Below are positions 1 through 21,800 of a DNA stretch of 35,376 bases, piece after piece (the stretch's first letter is position 1; each line of letters starts with the position of its first letter). The notes below the pieces were generated by a model that did not search any database, was not told the origin of the DNA, and saw only the letters and a list, made by a program, of their open reading frames with translations. The stretch spans positions 1-35,376 of the forward strand of contig DUPC01000046.1 of NCBI GenBank assembly GCA_012838545.1. Direction: 5' to 3'. This stretch comes from Acholeplasmataceae bacterium. GTDB lineage: Bacteria; Bacillota_I; Bacilli_A; ML615J-28; CAG-313. Made by a program: the position numbers and the translations under genes.

Positions 1-3000
1 AATCGCCAAGGATTTCGAATGCTTGAGGAATAATTGCTTCAACCAAACTCATCGAAACGAGTTCTCTTAAAGCATCGATTAAGGCATAGGCATAGTCGTC
101 ACGGACTAAATCCATGTAATCGAATTCTTTGGTTCCGTTGATTAAATCAAGGATGTCATCTAGGGTCTTAACGATGAAGTCTTCATCGGCAAGAACTTGG
201 GCCAATTCAACATAGAAGCGGCCGAGTTTTTCGCCGTCAGAAGCTAAATCGACATCACTTAAGTCCACACGATTCAAGTCCATATCCAACACATTTTCGG
301 CTACCCCGAGAATTTTTTCTTTATGCAATTCTAGATAGTTCAATCCAAATAAGGCATTAAAGATTGCGACAACTGGTTCAGTATTGGCGAAATCAATTGG
401 ATATCCATTGTAAATGTCGACTGCGCCGAATTCGTTGGCACTGTCAAGGATAAAGACTATTGTTCTTAAGTCTTCGATAAGTTCGTTTTCGGTGTATGTA
501 TTATCGAAGTCAAGAAGTTGAGCAAATTCGGTTCCTTCAACCATCGGAACAACAAAGTTGTCGATAGCAGGGAATGCTAAAACTTTAACGGTGCTTAAGC
601 GGGTTAAAGCTTCAAGGATGCGAGCCACGCTGTCAACGTTGGCGGAAGTTAAATAATCAAAGTAATCAAGTTCGCCGCCTGTAGCATCTTCGATTAGATT
701 TAAGACGTCAGTTACTTTTACAAGATCGTTGTTGGCAAATACGTCAAATACTACGGCAACAACTTCTGTTAATACGGCTAAGTCGTCTTTGAGAACGATT
801 CCGCTGGTATCTGCATCCATATCCAAGTACGACAAGGCAAATTCAAAGATTGCGCTTTCTTTACCGACTAGGATATTCAATTCTTTGACTAGATTGATGA
901 CGTTAATGACAATCGGTTTTAATGGCAATAAGTCAGTATCTTCGTATTCTAAGTATCCCACTATGTCGCCTTTGGCAGCTTCATGGAGAATGCTTACGAC
1001 GGTTCGCAAGTCTGCCATTAATTCCGCATTTGTTAGTGCACTGATGTCAACGATGTCTTGAATCATCGGATCAAGTTCATCAACAATCGGAGCGCCGAAT
1101 TTGTCATAAACGACTTTGACTAGTTCTTCTAAAGTTTTCGATAAAACAACTTGATCCAAAATTGCAAGTACCGAAGTAATGTTTTCGTTAGTAACGTAGT
1201 CAAGCGGACTTACGCTTCCTTCAGAAATAGCATCTACTTCTTCCATTAAAGTTTTATAGGTTTGGAAGCCGTTGTTTTGGAGAACGACGAATACCTCGTG
1301 GATAATCGCTTTAAGGATTTCCACTTCAGCAAGCCAGTCAACTGCTTCTTCAGCGAATTCATATTCGATTTCCGCAAACGACAATCCCAATTCAACGATT
1401 TGGTTGCCTTTGCCGCTTAAGAGGCTCATGTTTGCGATAACGTCGATGAGGTTCAATACTTCGTCTTCAAGGTCGAGCGAAATATCGTCAACGCGCAAGA
1501 AGTCGAGAACTTCTGCGTCAATGAACGGACGAAGCGCTTCGATTAACGCATTGAGATCGGCTATAACATTTTCCGCATTCGTATTCTTCAAATCGAGCAA
1601 GAAGTCAAATTCGTCTGGAATCATGGTCTTCGCATAAACAAAGACATCTGGAATAACAAGACGAAGGGTTGGCAAGTTGACAAGTTTTGTTAGAGCGTCA
1701 AGCGCGATATGACCGAATTCGTCTTTGCTGTAGAAGAAGTCAAATGGGATTTCTTCAAGTTTTTCGATGTCGCCGAAAGTCTTCAAGAAGAAGTCAGAAT
1801 CGGTTAGAATCTTCAATAAGTCTTGATATACGGCAACAAGTTGTTCGCCGTCTGCAACAAGATTCATTTCATCAACCGGAACATGAGTTAAATAAATTCC
1901 GAAGTTATCAGTTACAAAATCAAGAATGCCTTGAATATTGTCGTTGAGGATATTTAGGCTGGTTAGAGTTGTGAAGATGAATGGAATGATTTCGTGATCG
2001 TATGGGATTGCTTGATTGTAAACTGTCAAATCGTTGATTGTTCCGTCAAGGAAATCTCTTGCGATATCAAGATAGTTAGGGATAGTGTTTGCAACCTTGA
2101 TGATTTCAACGATTGCTAGGAGGTCTGCTTCAAGTTTGCTACCGGTGTATTCGGCAACCGATAGATATTGAGCATAATCGCCAAGGGATTCTTTGAGCAA
2201 TTGTTCATAAGCAGGGTGGAAAACAACTTTGACTAATTCAAGTTTGAAAAGGTATTCCAATGCTTCCGCAACCTTGCTTACAACATCGGTAGTAACATTA
2301 GCCAAATAGTCGCCAGCTTCAATGTAGTCTAGGACGGCTTGCAATGTCGATAATTCAGTGCCTGCCAAAGCATCGCCAAGGGCAAGGATTGCTTGCGCAA
2401 TGAGATCTGCTTCGCTAGACCAATTGATACCTGCGAAGTCTTCTTCAACCATTTCAATGCTGGCCATGCCTAGGACTTTAACCATAATCTTGGCAGGATT
2501 GAAGTTGAAGAGATTCAACTTGAACAATTCTTTAACGATATTAGCTACCGGTTCAAGGTTGGTAAGCGTTAATTCTTTGAATTCAGATTTGTAGAATTCA
2601 ACAAGTCCTAACGACAAGGCATCGCGACCGATCTTAACAATCGAACGCAAATCTTGTACCAATTGGGCAGCTGTTAAACCTTCGGTGATTTCAAGACGTT
2701 CATTTTGAACCGCAATCAAATCGCGATATTCTTCCGGAATCATATCAACAATCATTTGATGATAGATTTCAGGCAACAATTCAGCAAGCAAATGCGAATC
2801 AAGGAAGGTTTCGAGGAAGTTTAGACCGTGTTCGATTACAAAATCGCTGATAAAGTAATCGATATTGAAGACTTTTTCGCCGCTTTCGTTTTCAACCATT
2901 AGAGCGAATTCGGGGTCAGTCAATACAGGTCTTAACATTTCAATCGCATTCAACAAAACGTCTTTTTCGCCGGTAAAATCAACATCGTTAAGGTAACCTT

Positions 3001-5521
3001 CGGAAAGTTCCAAAACATCGAAGACCACTAGCAAAGCACGGATAACTCTTCCTTCGCGGCCTTTGAGGAAACGCGAAGATAATAGGCTATCGAGGATGCC
3101 TTTAATGGCGTCAACTTCGCTGAATTTGATGCGATCGATTAGTTCGCCTTCTTTACCGAAGTCGATAAGTTTCGAAATGTTTTCGATAATGGTAATTAAG
3201 TTTTCGATTTCTTCTTTTGCGGTTTCGGATGTAATATCATCGAATAAACCGGCATCGGCTAGTTCATCGCCTAAATCTCTGAGAATCGGCGTTACATATT
3301 CATCCAATGCTTGTGGAAGAATCGTTTTGATGAGTTCGGATTTAGCCGTAACTTCAAGGATTTCGATGGTGAATTCATAGAATTGGTCTTGATCCATCAA
3401 TTTGTTAAAATCGATGTTACCAAGGTCTTCTAGGTCAAATCCTTCGAGCGTATTGAATTTGGCTAAAATACCGATAAGTTCTTTAATGTTGTCCTTTTCA
3501 GCTGTCCAATCGACTTTGCTGAAGTCTAATTCGGAAACATCAAGGATTTCAAATTGTTTTAATGCAGCAGTCAATAATTCGGTTTCTTTGCCCTTAATCA
3601 AGTTGAGCGAGAAGAGCAATTCAACCGCTTGTTGCATTTTGTCGGTATCGCTTAATTTGATTTCACCGGTAAAGACACCCAATTGTTCCAAGATGCTGGC
3701 GAGCTGAATGAGAGAATCGAAATCCCCTAGCCATTGCTCGGGTGTCAAACCAACCAAATCAAGGATATCTTTGAATTCGCCTAAGCCCAAATCTTCAAGT
3801 TGTTTGTTGAGCGAGTCGTTAATTACCGGAACAATAATCTTCATGAAGAGGTCGGTAATACCTAATTTTTCGAGAATCGAAAGCAATAAGGCACGCTTCG
3901 CATCGTCTTGAAGCAATTGGATAAGGGTATCAAGATTTAAGTTATCAAAATCAAGTTCCAATGCTTTAAAGTCGTCATATACATCAACAATGGTTAAGAG
4001 GGTTTGTTGCCAATTAACTTCTGATGTATCGACTTTGCCAATGTCGCCGATTAAATCTTGAACGAAGTCAAGTTTTAAGGCAGCATTGATTGCAACCGGC
4101 ATTAACTCTTTGATGAAATCTGTCGAACCGATGTTTAAGACAATTTCGCGTAAGACGTCACTGTCAAGATCGAATGGATCGAATTCATCACTGGTAAAGT
4201 CGCCGAGTTTTAGTGCTGTTCTTACAGCACGGAAAATCTTTGGCAAATCGTTGGCCCAATCGACTGCAATCAATTTGTCAAGCGATTGATTGGATTTTTC
4301 CAATAAATCTTTGACTGTGTCGATGGTACCTGCATATTCGATTCCTACCGGAATGATTTCCGCAATCAATTTCGCATCATTCAAGTAATCGAAAATGACA
4401 TCCAAATCCGCATCAGACAATGACCAAATATCAAATGAGCCGGTTTCTGGATCGTATGCTTTTAAAGCTACGTTGGCCACATTGATATAAGTGATGAGTT
4501 CTTCGCGAAGGTAAATGGTTTGCGAAGATGTTTCAAACTTAGCCATTGCGTCGAAGAGATAGATATCGATGGATTGGCCGAAGAAGAATTTAGATGAATT
4601 GATAAAACGTTGTATTCCCGCTTTGTCGTATTCTTTGGCAAGTTCAAAGATAAAGTCGAGTGTCGATTCACTATCGGCTACCCAAACATGGCCATTTTCG
4701 GATATCTTGCCGTCGAGGTTCAAAGCTGATTCCAATACATCAACAGTACCAGGATCAACCGAATTAACAATCGAGAATATACCGGTAAACGGAACGCTTA
4801 ACAAAATAACGAAAAGCAATCCCTTCAATAGACCTACACCCGCGCCCCACAAGCGACGTTTGCAACCGGTTTTTACTTTACGAGGTTGTTTTGAAATGGT
4901 GATGACTACATCTCCGGTGTAGTCTTCTGCTTCCACGATGACAACACCTTCATCTTCAGAAGCAGTTTCAGAAACGGTTTCCGTAGGTTCTGGAGTCGTT
5001 TCTGTTTCGATAGTTTCTACTTGTTCGGTTAATTTAGCAGCGCGTTTTGCTTTTCCTCTCTTAACAAGAGAAATAATCCCACGGACTATGAAAGCAATGA
5101 AGCGGATTAGACCTGCCAAAATAAACGCAAACAAAGTACCTACAAGCAATCCAACTAACCGGACCACGCCTTCGAGAATGCTTGTAAAGAGGGCATAAGC
5201 TCTGGACCCTTCAACCAACAATTGTCCGCCAATTTCGATTCCGCGAACAATTTCTTCCACAATCTTTTTTAAGGATGTGGCATTGCTGGAGAGGTCAAAG
5301 CTTGATTGGAAGATGTTTGATACGAAACCAGGTAGTTTCATATCGAGTAAATTGGAGCCGTTGCCGAAGAAAGCCCATACTATTAGCAGTATGATGATTA
5401 AAACGGCGGTGAACTTGAGCTCTCGTTTGAGCCCAGCGATAAAGCCCCAAAGCGCAAACAATGCTATAATTGCAACCATGGCCAAGCTGAAATATAGCAT
5501 TATTGCATTAGCGTTTAACAT
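1..5521 (-). CDS. Giant CvpA-like membrane-anchored helical-repeat protein (3' end outside window)
   Basis: I read this frame through from the ATG at 5521 to base 2: there is no stop in at least 1840 codons, so the C-terminus lies beyond the left edge. The start has a strong Shine-Dalgarno (GAGGTG, 6 nt before ATG) and a promoter upstream. Residues 1-252 look like a CvpA-type membrane domain: helices at about 9-30, 37-52, 117-152 and 224-252, the last preceded by KRRLWGAGVGLLKG, typical of the final CvpA helix. An acidic Thr/Glu-rich insertion (about 160-205) separates helices 3 and 4. The remaining 1590 or more residues are acidic, Leu/Ile/Asp/Glu-rich and predicted helical. A hinge motif '[VI][DN]W..E' recurs, with Trp at about 422, 504, 597, 672, 1034 and 1396, alongside a second motif 'L..DLR.IV' at about 955, 1130, 1495 and 1680. 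No catalytic motif was recognised. The protein is probably exposed on the cell surface, but its function is unknown. It is paralogous to the 837-aa protein encoded upstream. Confidence 0.9.
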   Translation of the reverse strand, partial: MLNANAIMLYFSLAMVAIIALFALWGFIAGLKRELKFTAVLIIILLIVWAFFGNGSNLLDMKLPGFVSNIFQSSFDLSSNATSLKKIVEEIVRGIEIGGQLLVEGSRAYALFTSILEGVVRLVGLLVGTLFAFILAGLIRFIAFIVRGIISLVKRGKAKRAAKLTEQVETIETETTPEPTETVSETASEDEGVVIVEAEDYTGDVVITISKQPRKVKTGCKRRLWGAGVGLLKGLLFVILLSVPFTGIFSIVNSVDPGTVDVLESALNLDGKISENGHVWVADSESTLDFIFELAKEYDKAGIQRFINSSKFFFGQSIDIYLFDAMAKFETSSQTIYLREELITYINVANVALKAYDPETGSFDIWSLSDADLDVIFDYLNDAKLIAEIIPVGIEYAGTIDTVKDLLEKSNQSLDKLIAVDWANDLPKIFRAVRTALKLGDFTSDEFDPFDLDSDVLREIVLNIGSTDFIKELMPVAINAALKLDFVQDLIGDIGKVDTSEVNWQQTLLTIVDVYDDFKALELDFDNLNLDTLIQLLQDDAKRALLLSILEKLGITDLFMKIIVPVINDSLNKQLEDLGLGEFKDILDLVGLTPEQWLGDFDSLIQLASILEQLGVFTGEIKLSDTDKMQQAVELLFSLNLIKGKETELLTAALKQFEILDVSELDFSKVDWTAEKDNIKELIGILAKFNTLEGFDLEDLGNIDFNKLMDQDQFYEFTIEILEVTAKSELIKTILPQALDEYVTPILRDLGDELADAGLFDDITSETAKEEIENLITIIENISKLIDFGKEGELIDRIKFSEVDAIKGILDSLLSSRFLKGREGRVIRALLVVFDVLELSEGYLNDVDFTGEKDVLLNAIEMLRPVLTDPEFALMVENESGEKVFNIDYFISDFVIEHGLNFLETFLDSHLLAELLPEIYHQMIVDMIPEEYRDLIAVQNERLEITEGLTAAQLVQDLRSIVKIGRDALSLGLVEFYKSEFKELTLTNLEPVANIVKELFKLNLFNFNPAKIMVKVLGMASIEMVEEDFAGINWSSEADLIAQAILALGDALAGTELSTLQAVLDYIEAGDYLANVTTDVVSKVAEALEYLFKLELVKVVFHPAYEQLLKESLGDYAQYLSVAEYTGSKLEADLLAIVEIIKVANTIPNYLDIARDFLDGTINDLTVYNQAIPYDHEIIPFIFTTLTSLNILNDNIQGILDFVTDNFGIYLTHVPVDEMNLVADGEQLVAVYQDLLKILTDSDFFLKTFGDIEKLEEIPFDFFYSKDEFGHIALDALTKLVNLPTLRLVIPDVFVYAKTMIPDEFDFLLDLKNTNAENVIADLNALIEALRPFIDAEVLDFLRVDDISLDLEDEVLNLIDVIANMSLLSGKGNQIVELGLSFAEIEYEFAEEAVDWLAEVEILKAIIHEVFVVLQNNGFQTYKTLMEEVDAISEGSVSPLDYVTNENITSVLAILDQVVLSKTLEELVKVVYDKFGAPIVDELDPMIQDIVDISALTNAELMADLRTVVSILHEAAKGDIVGYLEYEDTDLLPLKPIVINVINLVKELNILVGKESAIFEFALSYLDMDADTSGIVLKDDLAVLTEVVAVVFDVFANNDLVKVTDVLNLIEDATGGELDYFDYLTSANVDSVARILEALTRLSTVKVLAFPAIDNFVVPMVEGTEFAQLLDFDNTYTENELIEDLRTIVFILDSANEFGAVDIYNGYPIDFANTEPVVAIFNALFGLNYLELHKEKILGVAENVLDMDLNRVDLSDVDLASDGEKLGRFYVELAQVLADEDFIVKTLDDILDLINGTKEFDYMDLVRDDYAYALIDALRELVSMSLVEAIIPQAFEILGD

Positions 5522-5554
5522 ATAATCACCTCATTTTCCTATGATTATGACCTT

Positions 5555-5583
5555 ATTTTATCAAAAGAACGAAAAAATTGCAA
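5555..5583 (-). promoter_or_regulatory. Sigma-A-type promoter of the giant gene
   Basis: On the minus strand a -35 box TTGCAA (5578-5583) and a -10 box TAAAAT (5555-5560) are separated by exactly 17 nt. The transcript would start about 25-30 nt before the ATG at 5521. The giant gene is therefore probably transcribed on its own and not only from its upstream paralogue, which ends in a terminator. Confidence 0.65.
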
Positions 5584-5720: not shown

Positions 5721-5756
5721 AAAAGAAAAAAGTCCTAAGTTTACACTTAGAACTTT
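5721..5756 (-). terminator. Rho-independent terminator after the 837-aa CvpA-like gene
   Basis: A 12-bp stem (5729-5740 with 5745-5756, one G-T wobble, 4-nt loop) on the minus strand is followed by a T-rich tract. It lies 22 nt after the stop codon of the 837-aa gene. The rest of the 5522-5778 gap is AT-rich, with only the giant gene's promoter and ribosome binding site recognised. Confidence 0.85.
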
Positions 5757-5778: not shown

Positions 5779-8292
5779 TCAAATCAAGGGATTCCAAGCC
5801 ACGAATACTTCTTTTGCCAAATAGGAATTTGTTTGAATATCCAACGCTATTACGGTAAAAGTACCCTTATCGTCTTCATTGAGCGCTTTAAAGAAATCAA
5901 CAAGCAATTGCCCTTCATAAGCATAAGTTTTGCCACTGGAAACTAGGCCTTCGGTAGTAATCGAGGAACCAGGCACTTGAGCATAATTTAAAATAGCAGG
6001 AAGGTAATAATCGATTGGCGTAGGACGTTCTTCGCCGACTTTTTCAAATTTTTGAATGGCTTCCCCGAGCGCAATTTTTTTATCCGGAGAGAATAAATCC
6101 GGGTCGCTATATGCTTCTTTCATTGCATTCGCGAAGTCAATCAAATCCCTCATGTCATCTGCATTCCCCGCCAAAATATCTTTATCGGTATAGTCAAAAA
6201 CAAGTTTTCCGTCAACTTTCGGATTGTGTTCTTGGAACATTTCTTCCAAACTTTTGTTAATCATTTTGCCGACCATTAAGGTGGTGATATCTCCTTTGGC
6301 AGCATTAATCATCAATTGTTCGATTGTCTCTCCCGTTAACAATTCGATTCCGTCTTCTAAAGCTTCGACTTGTTCTTTAATTTCCTTGATGGCTTCAAAT
6401 TCAACAACCCAATCAATTGCGTCAAAATCAATGCTTGACAAATCGAGGGAATCGTCAATCTCGTTAATTAAAGATTCCACAACGGTTCTTAAAGCCGGCT
6501 GTAATAAGGCACTGGCGTTAATTGCCTCAAACAATTCGCTGAGTTTATCTTTTCCTTCCTGGGTTTCGAGCGCATCATAAATCAATTCGAGACTGAAATC
6601 CTCAATCGAACCCAATCGCGTCAAAGCAATAAGCATACGTGCCAAATTGTTTGGTTCGGTATTCCAATCGATTTGCGAAAAGTCTTGGGATACGCCCCAT
6701 TCGTCAAAAGTTTCTTTCATATTTGTGAATTTGATTAACAGATTCAATAAATCCGCTTCTTTGCCTTGGACTTTCGTCAGTTCAAACGGTTTGGTAATCA
6801 GACGTCTAAGGGCATCTTCTTTGGTGAAATCAATTTGATCCGATTCTTCAAACAAACCCAATTCATAAGCAGCTCTGACGATGTTGGAAATGGTTTTAAA
6901 GTTTTTGCCCCAATCATCTTCAGACATATTTCTTAAATCGGCAAGTTCAATCAAAACGGTTACGTCGACTCCTTCTTCGGTGCCGAATTCCGTCAAAGCT
7001 TTGCTGAGTTCTTCGTAAAGGAAACTTGCGCCAAGTTGGGAAATAAGCTCTGATTTGGCAATGGCTTTACCGAGTTCTTCCATCGCATCGTCAAGCGCGG
7101 GGATTGTCAAACTCTTGGCCAGATCATCAAAGTCAAATTCGCCGACTTCCAACAAATTGGCTATTTTATTCAAGATTAAAGCTATGGCTTCGTTTTCTTT
7201 TTCCCAATCGATTTGTTTCAGAGCTTCGATATCGATATCGTTTTCGTCCAACAAATCGTTGGCATCAAGGTATTCGATAAGGGCGGGAGCGAACATCGGA
7301 AGAAAATCATGTTTGATTATCAAATCAAACAAGGCTTCTTTTTCGTTGATAATCAACTCCGAAATATCAATTTCACCGTCTTTACGGTATTGGTTTAAGA
7401 CATTTAATGTTGTTTTTACATCGTCAATCAAATAAACAAAATTGATGGTCCCCTGTTTGGTTTTAACGCGCGTTAGGTAGCCAAAATACAAAGCGTCAAG
7501 CGGTTTGTCTTTGCTGCCGAAACGATTCAAAATTCTCCTAATCGTAATTCGGTCGAATTGTTCCAAAACTTTAAAGGCATTTTCAAGTTGCTCTTTGTTT
7601 TGTTCGTTTTCATTGACTAACACTTCGCTTGTTTGGTTGACCAACGTGGTGTCGAAGCTGTCCATCATTTCTTCTTTCAAATCCATTAAAAGCGAAACCG
7701 AACCAAAGAGCGGCAAAGTAATAATCAAGAAGACCAGCACATATTGCAAGCCGCCGAGCCCCATTCCAATCAGACGGGACAAGATGTTTTTCTTTGGTTT
7801 CTCAACTCGACCGTCCGGTCCATAACTTGGACGCTCGAAGATTTTACGAATGATAAACAAAATGAAATTCAATAAAGGCGTTACGATAAACGTACATATC
7901 GCAACCCCTATATAGAAGACAATAAAGCGTGACACGCTGATGCCCAGCGAAAGTACCAATTGGTACATTTCGCTCGTTTGATCAAGCGAAACACCGTTAT
8001 TGAATTCTTTGGCAACATAATTGGATACGATATCAAGTACCGAATTGCCTAGTTCAATATTGATAAAACCCGGAAATTGCCAGGTCAAAACCATTTTGGC
8101 AAACAGGTCAATAAACAAAAGCAATGTAATCAGCGGTACTATTCTGGTCAAAAAACGAAATATTGACTTTTTCATCCCTCTGATAAAGCCAATCAATAAA
8201 GCGATTACAAAGGAACCAAGCACCGCCCAATTAAATATGGTAATCGACAATTCAACATTTTTGATTACTTCAGGTGTAATTGACATGCCCAT
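5779..8292 (-). CDS. CvpA-like membrane protein with long helical-repeat domain
   Basis: This 837-residue protein has the same architecture as the giant protein encoded next. Its four membrane helices lie at about 18-39, 46-71, 110-150 and 173-203, and the last follows a CvpA-like SRLIGMGLGGLQ segment. About 630 acidic helical residues follow. The hinge motif containing Trp recurs at residues 363 (IDWEKE), 461 (DDWGKN), 543 (IDWNTE) and 628 (IDWVVE), a period of about 82-98 residues. I chose the ATG at 8292 because AGAAGG lies 6 nt upstream; an in-frame TTG at 8319 has no good ribosome binding site, and a second ATG at 8286 is also possible. CvpA proteins are usually about 160-200 residues, so this C-terminal extension is unusual. 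No enzyme motif is visible. A role in the cell envelope or at the surface is inference. Confidence 0.88.
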   Translation of the reverse strand: MGMSITPEVIKNVELSITIFNWAVLGSFVIALLIGFIRGMKKSIFRFLTRIVPLITLLLFIDLFAKMVLTWQFPGFINIELGNSVLDIVSNYVAKEFNNGVSLDQTSEMYQLVLSLGISVSRFIVFYIGVAICTFIVTPLLNFILFIIRKIFERPSYGPDGRVEKPKKNILSRLIGMGLGGLQYVLVFLIITLPLFGSVSLLMDLKEEMMDSFDTTLVNQTSEVLVNENEQNKEQLENAFKVLEQFDRITIRRILNRFGSKDKPLDALYFGYLTRVKTKQGTINFVYLIDDVKTTLNVLNQYRKDGEIDISELIINEKEALFDLIIKHDFLPMFAPALIEYLDANDLLDENDIDIEALKQIDWEKENEAIALILNKIANLLEVGEFDFDDLAKSLTIPALDDAMEELGKAIAKSELISQLGASFLYEELSKALTEFGTEEGVDVTVLIELADLRNMSEDDWGKNFKTISNIVRAAYELGLFEESDQIDFTKEDALRRLITKPFELTKVQGKEADLLNLLIKFTNMKETFDEWGVSQDFSQIDWNTEPNNLARMLIALTRLGSIEDFSLELIYDALETQEGKDKLSELFEAINASALLQPALRTVVESLINEIDDSLDLSSIDFDAIDWVVEFEAIKEIKEQVEALEDGIELLTGETIEQLMINAAKGDITTLMVGKMINKSLEEMFQEHNPKVDGKLVFDYTDKDILAGNADDMRDLIDFANAMKEAYSDPDLFSPDKKIALGEAIQKFEKVGEERPTPIDYYLPAILNYAQVPGSSITTEGLVSSGKTYAYEGQLLVDFFKALNEDDKGTFTVIALDIQTNSYLAKEVFVAWNPLI

Positions 8293-14655: not shown

Positions 14656-15696
14656 ATAGAAGCTAAAACCATTTTGATTGGCATGTTGCATAACCGTAAA
14701 AACCCCAGTCTGGTGTCAAGGGCTTATCTGTATTCTGCTATCGCCAAGCTTGAGGGAGCTGAACTGTTTTACTTTACTCCGGGAGAAGTAAATTTAAAAA
14801 ATAAAACCATTAATGGACTATATTACCATCAGGGAAAATGGCTTAACAAACGGTTTCCTTTTCCCGATGTAGTCATCAATTCGGTTAGTTTTTCCTTGTC
14901 TTGGCAAAAACAAATTGAAAACGCGTTAAAAAAGACCATACCATTCACCAGTTACCCAGTGGGTTCAAAAAACTTTGTCTATGAAAAACTGAAAAAATCA
15001 AGCGAACTGAAAAAACACGTTATTCCCTATCAGCTCCTAAATAAAAAGGAAGATTTGATTTCCTTTTTAAATACCCACTCGGAAGTCATCGTTAAACCGA
15101 CACGGAGCCATCACGGCAACAACGTCGTTAAAATTGCCAAAGTGGGCAAACGCTACTTGTTGACAAAGGATAGAGAAACAAAAGAACTGTCCGAAAAAGA
15201 ATTAGGGGATTTGGTTTTTACCACCGATTTCAAACAACTCGTCCAAAAATACATTTCCAGCAAACTCCCCACGGGCGAACCGTTCGATTTTCGGATTCAT
15301 TTGCAAAAAAACCGCAAGGGCATTTGGACCGTAACTTACATCGTTCCGCGCATCGGCAATAAAAAAGCGGTGATTACCAATCTTTCCCAAGGCTCGCAAA
15401 TGATAAAATACGACGTTTTTATGGATCTTTATTTTGGTCCCAAGTCCAATGAATTGCAAAACAAAATCAATGACTTTGCTTCAAGTTTCGGCGATTTGTT
15501 CGATTCCCTCTACCCTTACAAATTTGACGAACTGGGAGTCGATGTCGGCTTAGACGAAAACCACAACATTTGGATTTATGAAGTAAACTGGCGCCCGGGA
15601 CACGTATTTATCGAAGTCTTTACGGGGTTTAACACGGTCAATTATGCCATCTTTTTAGCAACCCAGAAACTACTTTCGGAAAGGAAGAATAAGTGA
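14656..15696 (+). CDS. YheC/YheD-like ATP-grasp protein
   Basis: The protein (346 residues from an ATA codon, 340 from TTG at 14674) resembles the YheC/YheD spore-coat-associated ATP-grasp family. Seen in order are VKPTRSHHGNNVVKI, FDFRIHLQK with a following ITNLSQGS-type segment, and the metal-binding DELGVDVGLDE and IYEVNWRPG. These are expected of an amide-bond-forming enzyme, but the substrate is unknown. The start is unusual: AAGAGGTG (14641-14648) lies 7 nt before in-frame ATA at 14656, an in-frame stop stands at 14650, and the first TTG and ATG cut into the N-terminal strand TILIGML. The stop overlaps the GTG of the MurF-like gene, so the two are translationally coupled. Confidence 0.82.
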   Translation: MEAKTILIGMLHNRKNPSLVSRAYLYSAIAKLEGAELFYFTPGEVNLKNKTINGLYYHQGKWLNKRFPFPDVVINSVSFSLSWQKQIENALKKTIPFTSYPVGSKNFVYEKLKKSSELKKHVIPYQLLNKKEDLISFLNTHSEVIVKPTRSHHGNNVVKIAKVGKRYLLTKDRETKELSEKELGDLVFTTDFKQLVQKYISSKLPTGEPFDFRIHLQKNRKGIWTVTYIVPRIGNKKAVITNLSQGSQMIKYDVFMDLYFGPKSNELQNKINDFASSFGDLFDSLYPYKFDELGVDVGLDENHNIWIYEVNWRPGHVFIEVFTGFNTVNYAIFLATQKLLSERKNK

Positions 15697-17066
15697 AACC
15701 ATTAAGTTTGTCGACAATTTTGAAAGCCGTTGGAATCAAGGAACCATCCCCTCAGGTATTAATTCATTATGTGGGAGACAATATCAAAAGAATTCAAAAC
15801 CATACGGTTATTTTTCACTTAAACAAAGAACGTTCCGTAGACTTGAAAAGATTAAAGCGTCTTGACCACTGTTACATCGTTACGGACCAACCCTTAATTA
15901 AAAATACCATTCCTGAAGAAATTTGCTTTTTTGTCCCTAATGTGCAACATGCCTATGCTAATTTTGTTAAATTTTACCGAGGAATGTTTAATTTAAAAAC
16001 AATAGCGGTAACGGGGACTTGTGGGAAAACGACCACCAAGGAAATGATTGCCCAAGCATTGCGAAAAAAGGGTCCGATAGTTGCCACTTACCAAAGCAAA
16101 AACGGTATCCGCCGCCACAACGATTATTTAATGCAAATTGACGATTCCACCAAATATCTGGTGCTGGAAACCGCACTGACCCACGCGGGGCACATCCTTC
16201 AGACTTGCGAACTATTTAAACCCCAAATCGGCATTATCACCACAATCGGAATTGACCACTTGAATAATTTCGAAAACCATGAGTCATATATCCGGGCCAA
16301 AGCGGAGCTCTTAACGGGCTTAAACAACGAAGGAATTCTCATTGTCAATAACGACGACGATTACATCAAACAAATCGATACGAGCCGCTTTAAAGGCAGG
16401 ATTGTTACCTTCGGCATTAACAACCCTTCGGACTTTAGCGCATCTCATATAGCATATCAAAAACAAAGCATGACTTTTACTTTGCATTATCATAAGCAAA
16501 ACTACTTTTTTAATGTTCAAGGTCTTGGTCTTCACACTGTTTATAATGCGCTGGGGGCGATTGTCGCTTTGACGGTTTTGGGTTTAAGAATGAAAGACAT
16601 TGTAACCTATTTGGCTCAATACAAACCTATTCGAAGCCATATCGAACCTAAAAAGGGCATTAATGACAGTATCATATTAGACGACACTTGGAGTTCCAAC
16701 CCTACTTCCATGGCCGCCGCAATTAAGGTTTTGAAAGATTTGGGAATAAACAAGCGAAAAATAGCGGTTATCGGAAGGATTTCCTATTTAGGCACTCATG
16801 AAAACGAATCATACCAAAAAATTGCCAAAATGCTTTGGAAAAATAAAATAGATATCTTGGTTACCCAAGATACCAAAGCAAAAACAATCGGCGATTATTT
16901 GTTAAAAGAAGGTTTTAATCAAAATAATATCTATCATTGCCCAAACTCAATAATATTGTTAGAAACTTTAAAGACTTTATTAACCAAAAATTCAATAGCC
17001 CTGTTTAAGTGGTCAATGCTGGACAAAAAGAACCAAGTCGTTTTGGATAATATAATCGTTAAATAA
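15693..17066 (+). CDS. MurF-like Mur ligase with atypical N-terminal domain
   Basis: This 457-residue protein is a Mur ligase family amide synthetase. The P-loop TGTCGKTTT is at residues 107-115. The Lys that is carbamylated in Mur ligases is in RAKAEL (about 203), and the MurF-like DDTWSSNPTSM is at 330-340. The central and C-terminal domains therefore look functional. The N-terminal 100 residues lack the usual UDP-MurNAc-binding motifs of MurF. They suggest a different acceptor from the peptidoglycan precursor. The start is GTG at 15693, overlapping the stop of the YheC/D-like gene (GTGA). True MurF with a divergent N-terminus remains possible. The neighbouring ATP-grasp genes suggest a peptide- or polymer-building pathway; this is inference. 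Confidence 0.82.
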   Translation: MKPLSLSTILKAVGIKEPSPQVLIHYVGDNIKRIQNHTVIFHLNKERSVDLKRLKRLDHCYIVTDQPLIKNTIPEEICFFVPNVQHAYANFVKFYRGMFNLKTIAVTGTCGKTTTKEMIAQALRKKGPIVATYQSKNGIRRHNDYLMQIDDSTKYLVLETALTHAGHILQTCELFKPQIGIITTIGIDHLNNFENHESYIRAKAELLTGLNNEGILIVNNDDDYIKQIDTSRFKGRIVTFGINNPSDFSASHIAYQKQSMTFTLHYHKQNYFFNVQGLGLHTVYNALGAIVALTVLGLRMKDIVTYLAQYKPIRSHIEPKKGINDSIILDDTWSSNPTSMAAAIKVLKDLGINKRKIAVIGRISYLGTHENESYQKIAKMLWKNKIDILVTQDTKAKTIGDYLLKEGFNQNNIYHCPNSIILLETLKTLLTKNSIALFKWSMLDKKNQVVLDNIIVK

Positions 17067-20723: not shown

Positions 20724-20799
20724 TGGTAGGGCTAAATGGATTCGAACCATTGAAATGACGGAGTCAAAGTCCGTTGCCTTACCGCTTGGCTATAGCCCT
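20724..20799 (-). tRNA. tRNA-Gln (anticodon TTG)
   Basis: Cloverleaf on minus: acceptor AGGGCTA with TAGCCCT, anticodon arm ACGGA-CTTTGAC-TCCGT giving anticodon TTG, T arm AATGG-TTCGAAT-CCATT, discriminator A, then an encoded CCA (20726-20724). It closely resembles Bacillus tRNA-Gln. It is the second gene of a two-tRNA transcript. Confidence 0.95.
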
Positions 20800-20805
20800 A
20801 CTTGA

Positions 20806-20890
20806 TGGTGGAGGGGGACGGATTCGAACCATCGAACTCTGAGAGAGTGGATTTACAGTCCACCGCGTTTAGCCACTTCGCTACCCCTCC
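20806..20890 (-). tRNA. tRNA-Tyr (anticodon GTA)
   Basis: Class II tRNA on minus: acceptor GGAGGGG with CCCCTCC, anticodon arm GTGGA-CTGTAAA-TCCAC giving GTA, a long variable arm, T arm around GGTTCGAATCC, discriminator A and an encoded CCA (20808-20806). It lies 6 nt upstream of tRNA-Gln and is cotranscribed with it. Confidence 0.95.
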
Positions 20891-21033: not shown

Positions 21034-21074
21034 AAAATAAAAAACAGGTTCGCTTATAATTTAATCGGAACCAG
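21034..21074 (-). terminator. Probable terminator after yabQ
   Basis: On minus, GGTTC and GAACC pair across a 16-nt loop and are followed by T6-A-T5. The stem begins inside the last codons of the yabQ-like gene. The wide loop makes it weaker than the others. Confidence 0.55.
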
Positions 21075-21516
21075 TTTCTTTGCTTGTTTTTCGGAAAAAT
21101 AAACGCCAGGTTTCCTTCATCTTTCGGAAGGGGTAACCCAAAATGCGTAAAGTTTCTTGGGGATAAAATAAATAAACAATTGCTTTTTTAAGCGGTTTTT
21201 TGAGAAAACCCCAAAGTATTAAAAGTTGTTCCAACCCTTTTACCATTTGCTTTTTTAATAAAAAGAGATAAATCCCTCCCCCAAGTAAGAGAAAGATAGG
21301 GAAAATAATTGGGATATAACCATGATGCAAAGAATAAGTAAATTTGATTGTGACAACAACCACAGCGATGAAAAAGGCAATGTGTCCAATTATCCGGTAA
21401 AGCTTTTTCAACCTTCGGGTGATAAACAAAACAATATCATAAGTCGATAAAAGGAAGATGCCGTAAAGAATCAGATAAAAAATGATTTTTACTTCATCGA
21501 TTAACGGTGGTATCAT
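21061..21516 (-). CDS. yabQ: YabQ-like spore cortex membrane protein
   Basis: This 151-residue protein has about four hydrophobic segments (about 10-33, 41-62, 65-88 and a weaker one) and a basic C-terminus, consistent with YabQ, a mother-cell membrane protein needed for spore cortex formation in Bacillus. YabQ sequences are poorly conserved, so the call depends mainly on the yabP gene directly upstream and on the ATGA overlap (21513-21516) that couples them. It is shorter than B. subtilis YabQ, which is about 210 residues, and the missing part is C-terminal. A divIC homologue often follows yabQ, but here tRNA genes follow. Confidence 0.7.
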   Translation of the reverse strand: MIPPLIDEVKIIFYLILYGIFLLSTYDIVLFITRRLKKLYRIIGHIAFFIAVVVVTIKFTYSLHHGYIPIIFPIFLLLGGGIYLFLLKKQMVKGLEQLLILWGFLKKPLKKAIVYLFYPQETLRILGYPFRKMKETWRLFFRKTSKETGSD

Positions 21517-21800
21517 TTAAACAGTTTTCCCATTAAACTGTTTTTCTCTTTTTTGCTTTTGAGGTTATCGACATATTCGATTGAATAAACAAACCCCTTA
21601 ATCCAGAGCAGTCCTTTATCGACATCCAAATGTTGCATTTCCAAGTCGCTTCCTCTTACCAACATATCCCCTAAGGTTGTAAGGATATAAAACTGCTCGC
21701 TATTTAAACTTTCAATTTTTTTGACACCGGTTATTTCCAGTTTTTTTCGTTCTTTTAAAGTTATTTCCTGGGTTGCGCTATCCATTTTCTCGTAGTTCAT
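21513..21800 (-). CDS. yabP: YabP-like sporulation protein
   Basis: This 95-residue protein carries the YabP family pattern: an LKERKKLEITGVKKIESLN segment, then TTLGDMLVRGSDLEMQHLDVDKG and a final GFVYSIEYV strand. YabP is produced in the mother cell under sigma-E in B. subtilis and is needed for late sporulation; the molecular role is unclear. The ATG at 21800 has GAGGTGGAG just upstream. It is divergent from lysS and overlaps yabQ by 4 nt. Together the pair is the clearest sporulation marker in the window. Confidence 0.85.
   Translation of the reverse strand: MNYEKMDSATQEITLKERKKLEITGVKKIESLNSEQFYILTTLGDMLVRGSDLEMQHLDVDKGLLWIKGFVYSIEYVDNLKSKKEKNSLMGKLFK

Follow-up and report, generated by a model that had tools for sequence, protein, structure and literature searches.

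The window, a stretch of 35,376 nucleotides from an uncultured gut bacterium, starts at base 1 of contig C20 of its genome, and its left end is occupied by a minus-strand gene, P1, that encodes a giant acidic repeat protein with what is very probably a CvpA-like membrane anchor (Table 1). From an ATG at position 5521 the frame runs for some 5.5 kb to base 2, the contig end, through 1,840 codons without a single stop. Because the window begins at the first base of the contig, the gene is truncated. Searches of the assembly with the protein and with a profile of its repeats revealed no other contig carrying the missing C-terminal part, and its loss could conceivably reflect a repeat array breaking an assembly. 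Neither a chance frame nor an assembly artefact can account for P1, as independent metagenome-assembled genomes (MAGs) contain homologous uninterrupted frames of 4,045-6,049 codons and dN/dS between pairs of family members is 0.11-0.38; the frame is real. The original prediction had described a single uninterrupted frame of more than 1,840 residues over the first 5.5 kb, which held up to the cut at the contig end, and had credited it with a good promoter and ribosome binding site, which held only in part. The ribosome binding site, GAGGTGAT, looks convincing, but the promoter-like site is only plausible by position, and promoter-like sites and terminator-like hairpins are no more numerous in this DNA than in shuffled sequence. 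With the same proviso, a P1 transcript of its own may be envisaged and would fit the promoter-like site together with the hairpin that follows P2.

Immediately upstream of P1 lies P2, which combines a CvpA-like anchor with about three repeats of the P1 type, and upstream of P2 lies MurA. The order MurA-P2-P1 is kept in several relatives; the neighbours differ in a sister family. Truncation of P1, the paralogy of the next gene and the spread of the family across the class all go beyond what had originally been noticed.

Table 1. Positions of P1, its parts and signals, and the adjoining genes in the window.
Feature	Position	Strand	Details and basis
P1, giant CvpA-anchored acidic repeat protein	2..5521	-	1,840 residues up to the contig end; C-terminus missing
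CvpA-like four-TM anchor of P1 (very likely)	4757..5521	-	residues 1-255; hydrophobic segments, profile comparisons, charge pattern
PF02674 signal stretch of P1	4763..4891	-	residues 211-253 (fourth TM helix); 11.8 bits, below cut-off
Conserved juxtamembrane helical region of P1	4220..4756	-	residues 256-434; common to paralogue P2 and other families
P1 array of ~183-residue all-alpha repeats	2..4219	-	self-derived profile; AlphaFold two-unit model
Ribosome binding site of P1, GAGGTGAT	5525..5532	-	directly before the ATG
Promoter-like site before P1, TTGCAA-17-TAAAAT	5555..5583	-	9/12 match; plausible by position only
Terminator-like hairpin	5729..5756	-	directly 3' of P2; 12 pairs, T run
P2, shorter paralogue of P1	5779..8319	-	846 residues from TTG; in-frame ATG at 8292
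MurA, upstream of P2	8401..9678	-	Pfam / NCBIfam

All four hydrophobic segments of P1 fall within its first 255 residues and correspond to predicted transmembrane (TM) helices at approximately 4-30, 35-52, 107-154 and 222-253; the Lys/Arg-rich loop at about 155-221 is assigned to the cytoplasm. P1 alone misses the Pfam cut-off for PF02674 (Colicin_V), with 11.8 bits against 29.3. That this anchor is CvpA-like by homology is nonetheless very likely, because its fourth helix gives the sole PF02674 signal in the window's own genome at E<=1, at E<=0.1 the profile picks up 8 of 16 family members (best 8.6e-8), two homologues of the same family exceed the cut-off (34.2 bits in G004 and, with its neighbours, 33.2 bits for P2 of G002), and an hhalign comparison of the family N-terminus with 24 canonical CvpA proteins returns a probability of 97.2%, the pair scoring E 2.9e-11 over 132 columns. 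The CvpA resemblance proposed beforehand for the N-terminus therefore survives a test that could have refuted it. Family members are also predicted to share the CvpA layout of four TM helices with cytoplasmic loops 1 and 3, together with a G...(R/K)G-type loop after TM1 and an R..G...G..(K/R)G-type motif at TM4. AlphaFold models the anchor poorly, with pLDDT mostly under 65. Canonical CvpA proteins of the class mostly total ~160-270 residues, whereas in the P1 family TM4 is followed by acidic helical repeats spanning 1,600 to more than 5,800 residues. If this reading is true, the CvpA domain serves here as an anchor for ectodomains up to ~20 times its own size. Several families of the class also contain CvpA proteins of 374-784 residues whose C-terminal parts have no Pfam match (L228, L229, L230, L232, L233 and L234).

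Beyond the juxtamembrane region, P1 is built of tandem repeats. A profile constructed from P1 itself spaces the units ~183 residues apart and finds about nine of them: a weak first repeat at residues 316-448, four units at 435-623, 615-787, 780-984 and 976-1170, and four more at 1158-1352, 1342-1535, 1524-1714 and 1704-1840. Complete relatives carry 20-24 copies and the longest protein 31. On inspection each unit resembles two halves of ~90 residues; a profile of the half-unit alone recovered the first half only. Some units of the longest protein are ~90% identical, and one of two sister species has an extra block of 552 residues, or three units. Given such indels of whole units and the dN/dS of 0.11-0.38, copy number is labile, with gain and loss of entire units, while the repeat sequence is under purifying selection.

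AlphaFold2 predicts residues 1-1000 of P1 to be a helical chain (pLDDT 67.7, pTM 0.48; mostly 75-90 over residues 330-750), and for two repeat units, with an alignment of 48 repeats as input, the all-alpha model is confident (pLDDT 86.8, pTM 0.84). No domain in P1 exceeded its Pfam or NCBIfam cut-off, the repeats matched no Pfam, NCBIfam or PDB entry, a sequence-profile search of them found no PDB relative, and Foldseek against the PDB and viral models gave no significant match (best E 0.65-0.69), so that no known fold was recognised among these. HEAT/ARM alpha-solenoids (importins, exportins, APC), all-alpha repeats as well, are among the top non-significant Foldseek matches, but at E 0.65 or worse and TM-scores <0.27 they are no real fold match. 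Two PADLOC matches at E 0.005 were dismissed as chance-level. In other families, four proteins (L130, L132, L134 and L135) keep the CvpA/repeat layout in their first ~500 residues and continue with other, often shorter repeats (~64-90 residues by eye) that have few cysteines or none.

The part of P1 after TM4 carries a net charge of -196, or -12.4 per 100 residues, with a pI of 4.05. Larger relatives range from -181 to -848, the latter in the largest of them, and P1 and these relatives bear 8-15 negative charges per 100 residues at a pI of ~4.1-4.4; most other proteins of the window fall between -5 and +5 per 100 residues. This acidity may be no more than a compositional side effect. The acidic helical region with repeated motifs and no recognised enzyme domain, all claimed beforehand, was borne out, a full-length match to a characterised family was sought and not found, and the proposed long rod finds support in the all-alpha tandem repeats. 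That it forms a surface fibre remains an inference.

Which way the repeats face is inferred from composition. All 34 members compared are richer in Lys/Arg in loops 1 and 3 than at the N-terminus, in loop 2 or where the C-terminal part begins. Under the positive-inside rule, this leaves the long C-terminal part outside, together with the N-terminus and loop 2. Cysteine is absent after TM4 in P1 and P2 (0 of 2,216 residues, as opposed to 51 of 5,360 in soluble proteins of the window; p=5e-8), scarce over all first-round loci (0.25% versus 1.0%) and missing altogether from distant relatives of 3,121, 3,683, 3,884 and 4,450 residues. Exported proteins of Gram-positive bacteria are reported to avoid cysteine, a trend termed 'cysteine exclusion' (PMC4628341). 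A topological precedent exists in MarP (Rv3671c) of Mycobacterium, in which four N-terminal TM helices precede a periplasmic C-terminal domain (PMC4992679). MarP itself is a ~400-residue protein with a trypsin-like protease domain, whereas neither Pfam nor NCBIfam detects a MarP-type protease or other enzyme domain in P1. It is likely, then, that the long repeat part faces outward, as had been predicted, though the support from charge pattern and absent cysteine is indirect and no experiment backs it.

At its far end the protein appears to be free. No complete relative has a sortase LPXTG-type motif near its C-terminus, a single internal match in L146 being the only one, and none shows a clear C-terminal TM helix; L039 ends in a borderline hydrophobic stretch, and L034 has one shortly before its end.

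Among near genomes 25 of 60 have a match, and complete giants of the same family measure 4,045, 4,165, 4,247, 4,408, 4,557, 4,624 and 4,800 residues; the largest relative, whose end is likewise lost at a contig end, has at least 6,049. Scanning a sequence collection with the single P1 protein gave no match, and scanning it with the family alignment gave ten named loci. These are MAGs of Bacilli from sheep and goat colon, goat cecum and water deer rectum, two 'Lapin' (rabbit) bins, one record labelled Anaeroplasma bactoclasticum and one Erysipelotrichaceae. A search with a profile of residues 1-560 hits 158 of the 395 genomes of the class at E<=1e-5, in at least 12 families and mostly in frames of 650-4,800 residues; ordinary CvpA probably accounts for a few weak matches in families f11 and f19. 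Sampling across the phylum gave 77 matches, every one of them in the same class; how many of the sampled genomes fall outside it is not known. Sampled members of the mycoplasma-like families f5 and f16, whose rpoB has in-frame TGA, yielded no match. Just upstream of one giant, at L040 1-2754, is a cysteine-rich, surface-like protein of leucine-rich-repeat type.

The distribution of the giants can be set against that of cell-wall genes. Among 80 genomes tested, no sampled member of families f7, f10, f13, f15 and f22 has MraY, and most of these members carry giants; f8 has the enzyme, as do nearly all of f1 and some of f2, f18 and f21. Since giants are kept in genomes without MraY, they do not depend on peptidoglycan synthesis. 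LCP enzymes (PF03816), by which anionic polymers are attached to the wall, occur in 67 of 198 genomes of the class sample, namely in 1 of 73 giant-bearing and 66 of 125 giant-less genomes (Fisher p=6e-16, a giant being a profile match at E<=1e-10). This table was compiled by hand and assumes that the 395-genome sample contains the 198. Counted by family, LCP is found in 0 of 12 with giants and 8 of 11 without (p=0.0003), f2 and f20 being taken as LCP-negative despite one LCP match in each. A second PF00953 enzyme (TagO/WecA type) is in no listed giant-bearing genome and in most LCP-bearing ones. Two genomes, G015 and G172, are exceptions with both a giant and LCP, and their LCP genes score lower than most others.

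Giants and LCP are thus nearly mutually exclusive, a striking pattern that nevertheless rests on about three switches and is not significant once corrected for the tree. On an rpoB tree of 78 genomes, in which G172 (LCP and a borderline giant at 3.5e-10) was counted as having a giant and G116 was left out, giants appear in three places: f8, f7 with f18, and a clade of 42 genomes, the first two beside LCP-bearing families. Parsimony requires 12 changes for giants and 7 for LCP, the tree yields 4 to 9 independent pairs, and sign tests on these are not significant. As proof of function the anticorrelation was therefore rejected, the independent pairs being too few.

The reading favoured here, with a probability of roughly 0.5, is that P1 is an outward polyanionic helical rod or brush that makes up a protein surface coat. 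The CvpA-type four-helix anchor would sit in the membrane with both ends outside, and the C-terminal part, thousands of residues long in complete relatives, would emerge from the cell as a string of ~183-residue all-alpha units bearing hundreds of net negative charges, its end free, without any sortase motif or C-terminal membrane helix in view. Its role would most likely be structural: as a stalk or brush, P1 would give rise to a polyanionic layer on the outer side of the membrane, and layer thickness would be set by the number of repeats. The family, its repeats and their purifying selection, the predicted helicity and the charge are established by computation; the rod or brush shape and the coat function are inferred, the overall shape was not measured from coordinates, and there are no experimental, partner, substrate or expression data. 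A bolder and unproven hypothesis, no more than possible, is that the giants replace the anionic polymers of the Gram-positive wall, that is, teichoic acids and capsules attached by LCP. In lineages losing or lacking a wall, giant acidic helical brushes encoded in the genome would then supply the outer negative charge. If true, such a substitution would explain the charge, the retention without MraY and the LCP pattern together.

Several other explanations deserve consideration. The most serious rival, and a possible one, is an adhesion fibre in which the repeats hold the molecule out to host mucus, feed particles or other bacteria, with repeat number selected for reach or escape from recognition. 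It is favoured by the named relatives, which are MAGs mostly from animal guts, by the variation of repeat number in whole units and by the leucine-rich-repeat-type protein next to one giant (L040). Against it, NCBIfam finds no distinct binding domain at the free end of the complete 4,800-residue relative, selection is purifying rather than diversifying, and the family is conserved throughout the class, including very diverse families. A tether or scaffold running from membrane to wall and organising peptidoglycan synthesis seems unlikely. The adjacency of murA and the MurA-P2-P1 order of several relatives speak for it, but the start of P1 appears to be separated by a terminator, giants persist in many genomes without MraY and the neighbours change in the sister family.

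Equally unlikely is a reading in which function resides in the CvpA part, as a module for transport or stress resistance, and the repeats act as a regulatory or sensing ectodomain. In enteric bacteria CvpA has been linked to colicin V export and to resistance to deoxycholate and bile salts (PMC6705877), and the class does contain medium-sized CvpA proteins with undescribed C-terminal parts. However, the P1 anchor has diverged so far that it drops under the Pfam cut-off, and the ectodomain is many times the size of the anchor and varies freely in length. Least credible, and very unlikely, is a cytoplasmic long part serving as an acidic internal scaffold. Its only support is that the topology lacks direct proof, and it is contradicted by the positive-inside pattern in 34 of 34 members, the lack of cysteine and the MarP precedent; the outward orientation, which a cytoplasmic location would have refuted, survives.

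Some elements of the surface-coat reading are familiar. CvpA-like anchors with an outside C-terminal domain are known from MarP, and giant helical surface proteins have been described: the Ebh-type proteins of Gram-positive bacteria are likewise very long, helical, repeated and exposed at the surface, but are not known to be anchored by CvpA. What appears to be new is a CvpA-anchored, class-wide family of acidic helical-repeat giants, which is absent from the family libraries used and from the open-access literature searched; within these limits the early impression that no described system has this layout is supported. Should the coat reading hold, the predicted outer surface in many members of this whole class, whose bacteria have small genomes and are related to mollicutes, would be dominated by a large unannotated family that persists through the loss of peptidoglycan synthesis and would offer a concrete handle on what replaces wall polymers when bacteria lose them.

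Elsewhere in the window, the minus strand at 21061-21800 shows weak similarity to YabQ (PF09578, E 1.7e-4, short of the cut-off), with a small gene alongside; the same pair recurs in a relative (L033 8513-9216). The pair might be a sporulation remnant, and the sister family of this lineage includes genomes without MraY. Two tRNA genes lie at 20727-20890 on the minus strand, and the plus strand at 14674-17066 carries the unusual combination of a YheC/D-type ATP-grasp gene with a MurF-type ligase gene directly after it.
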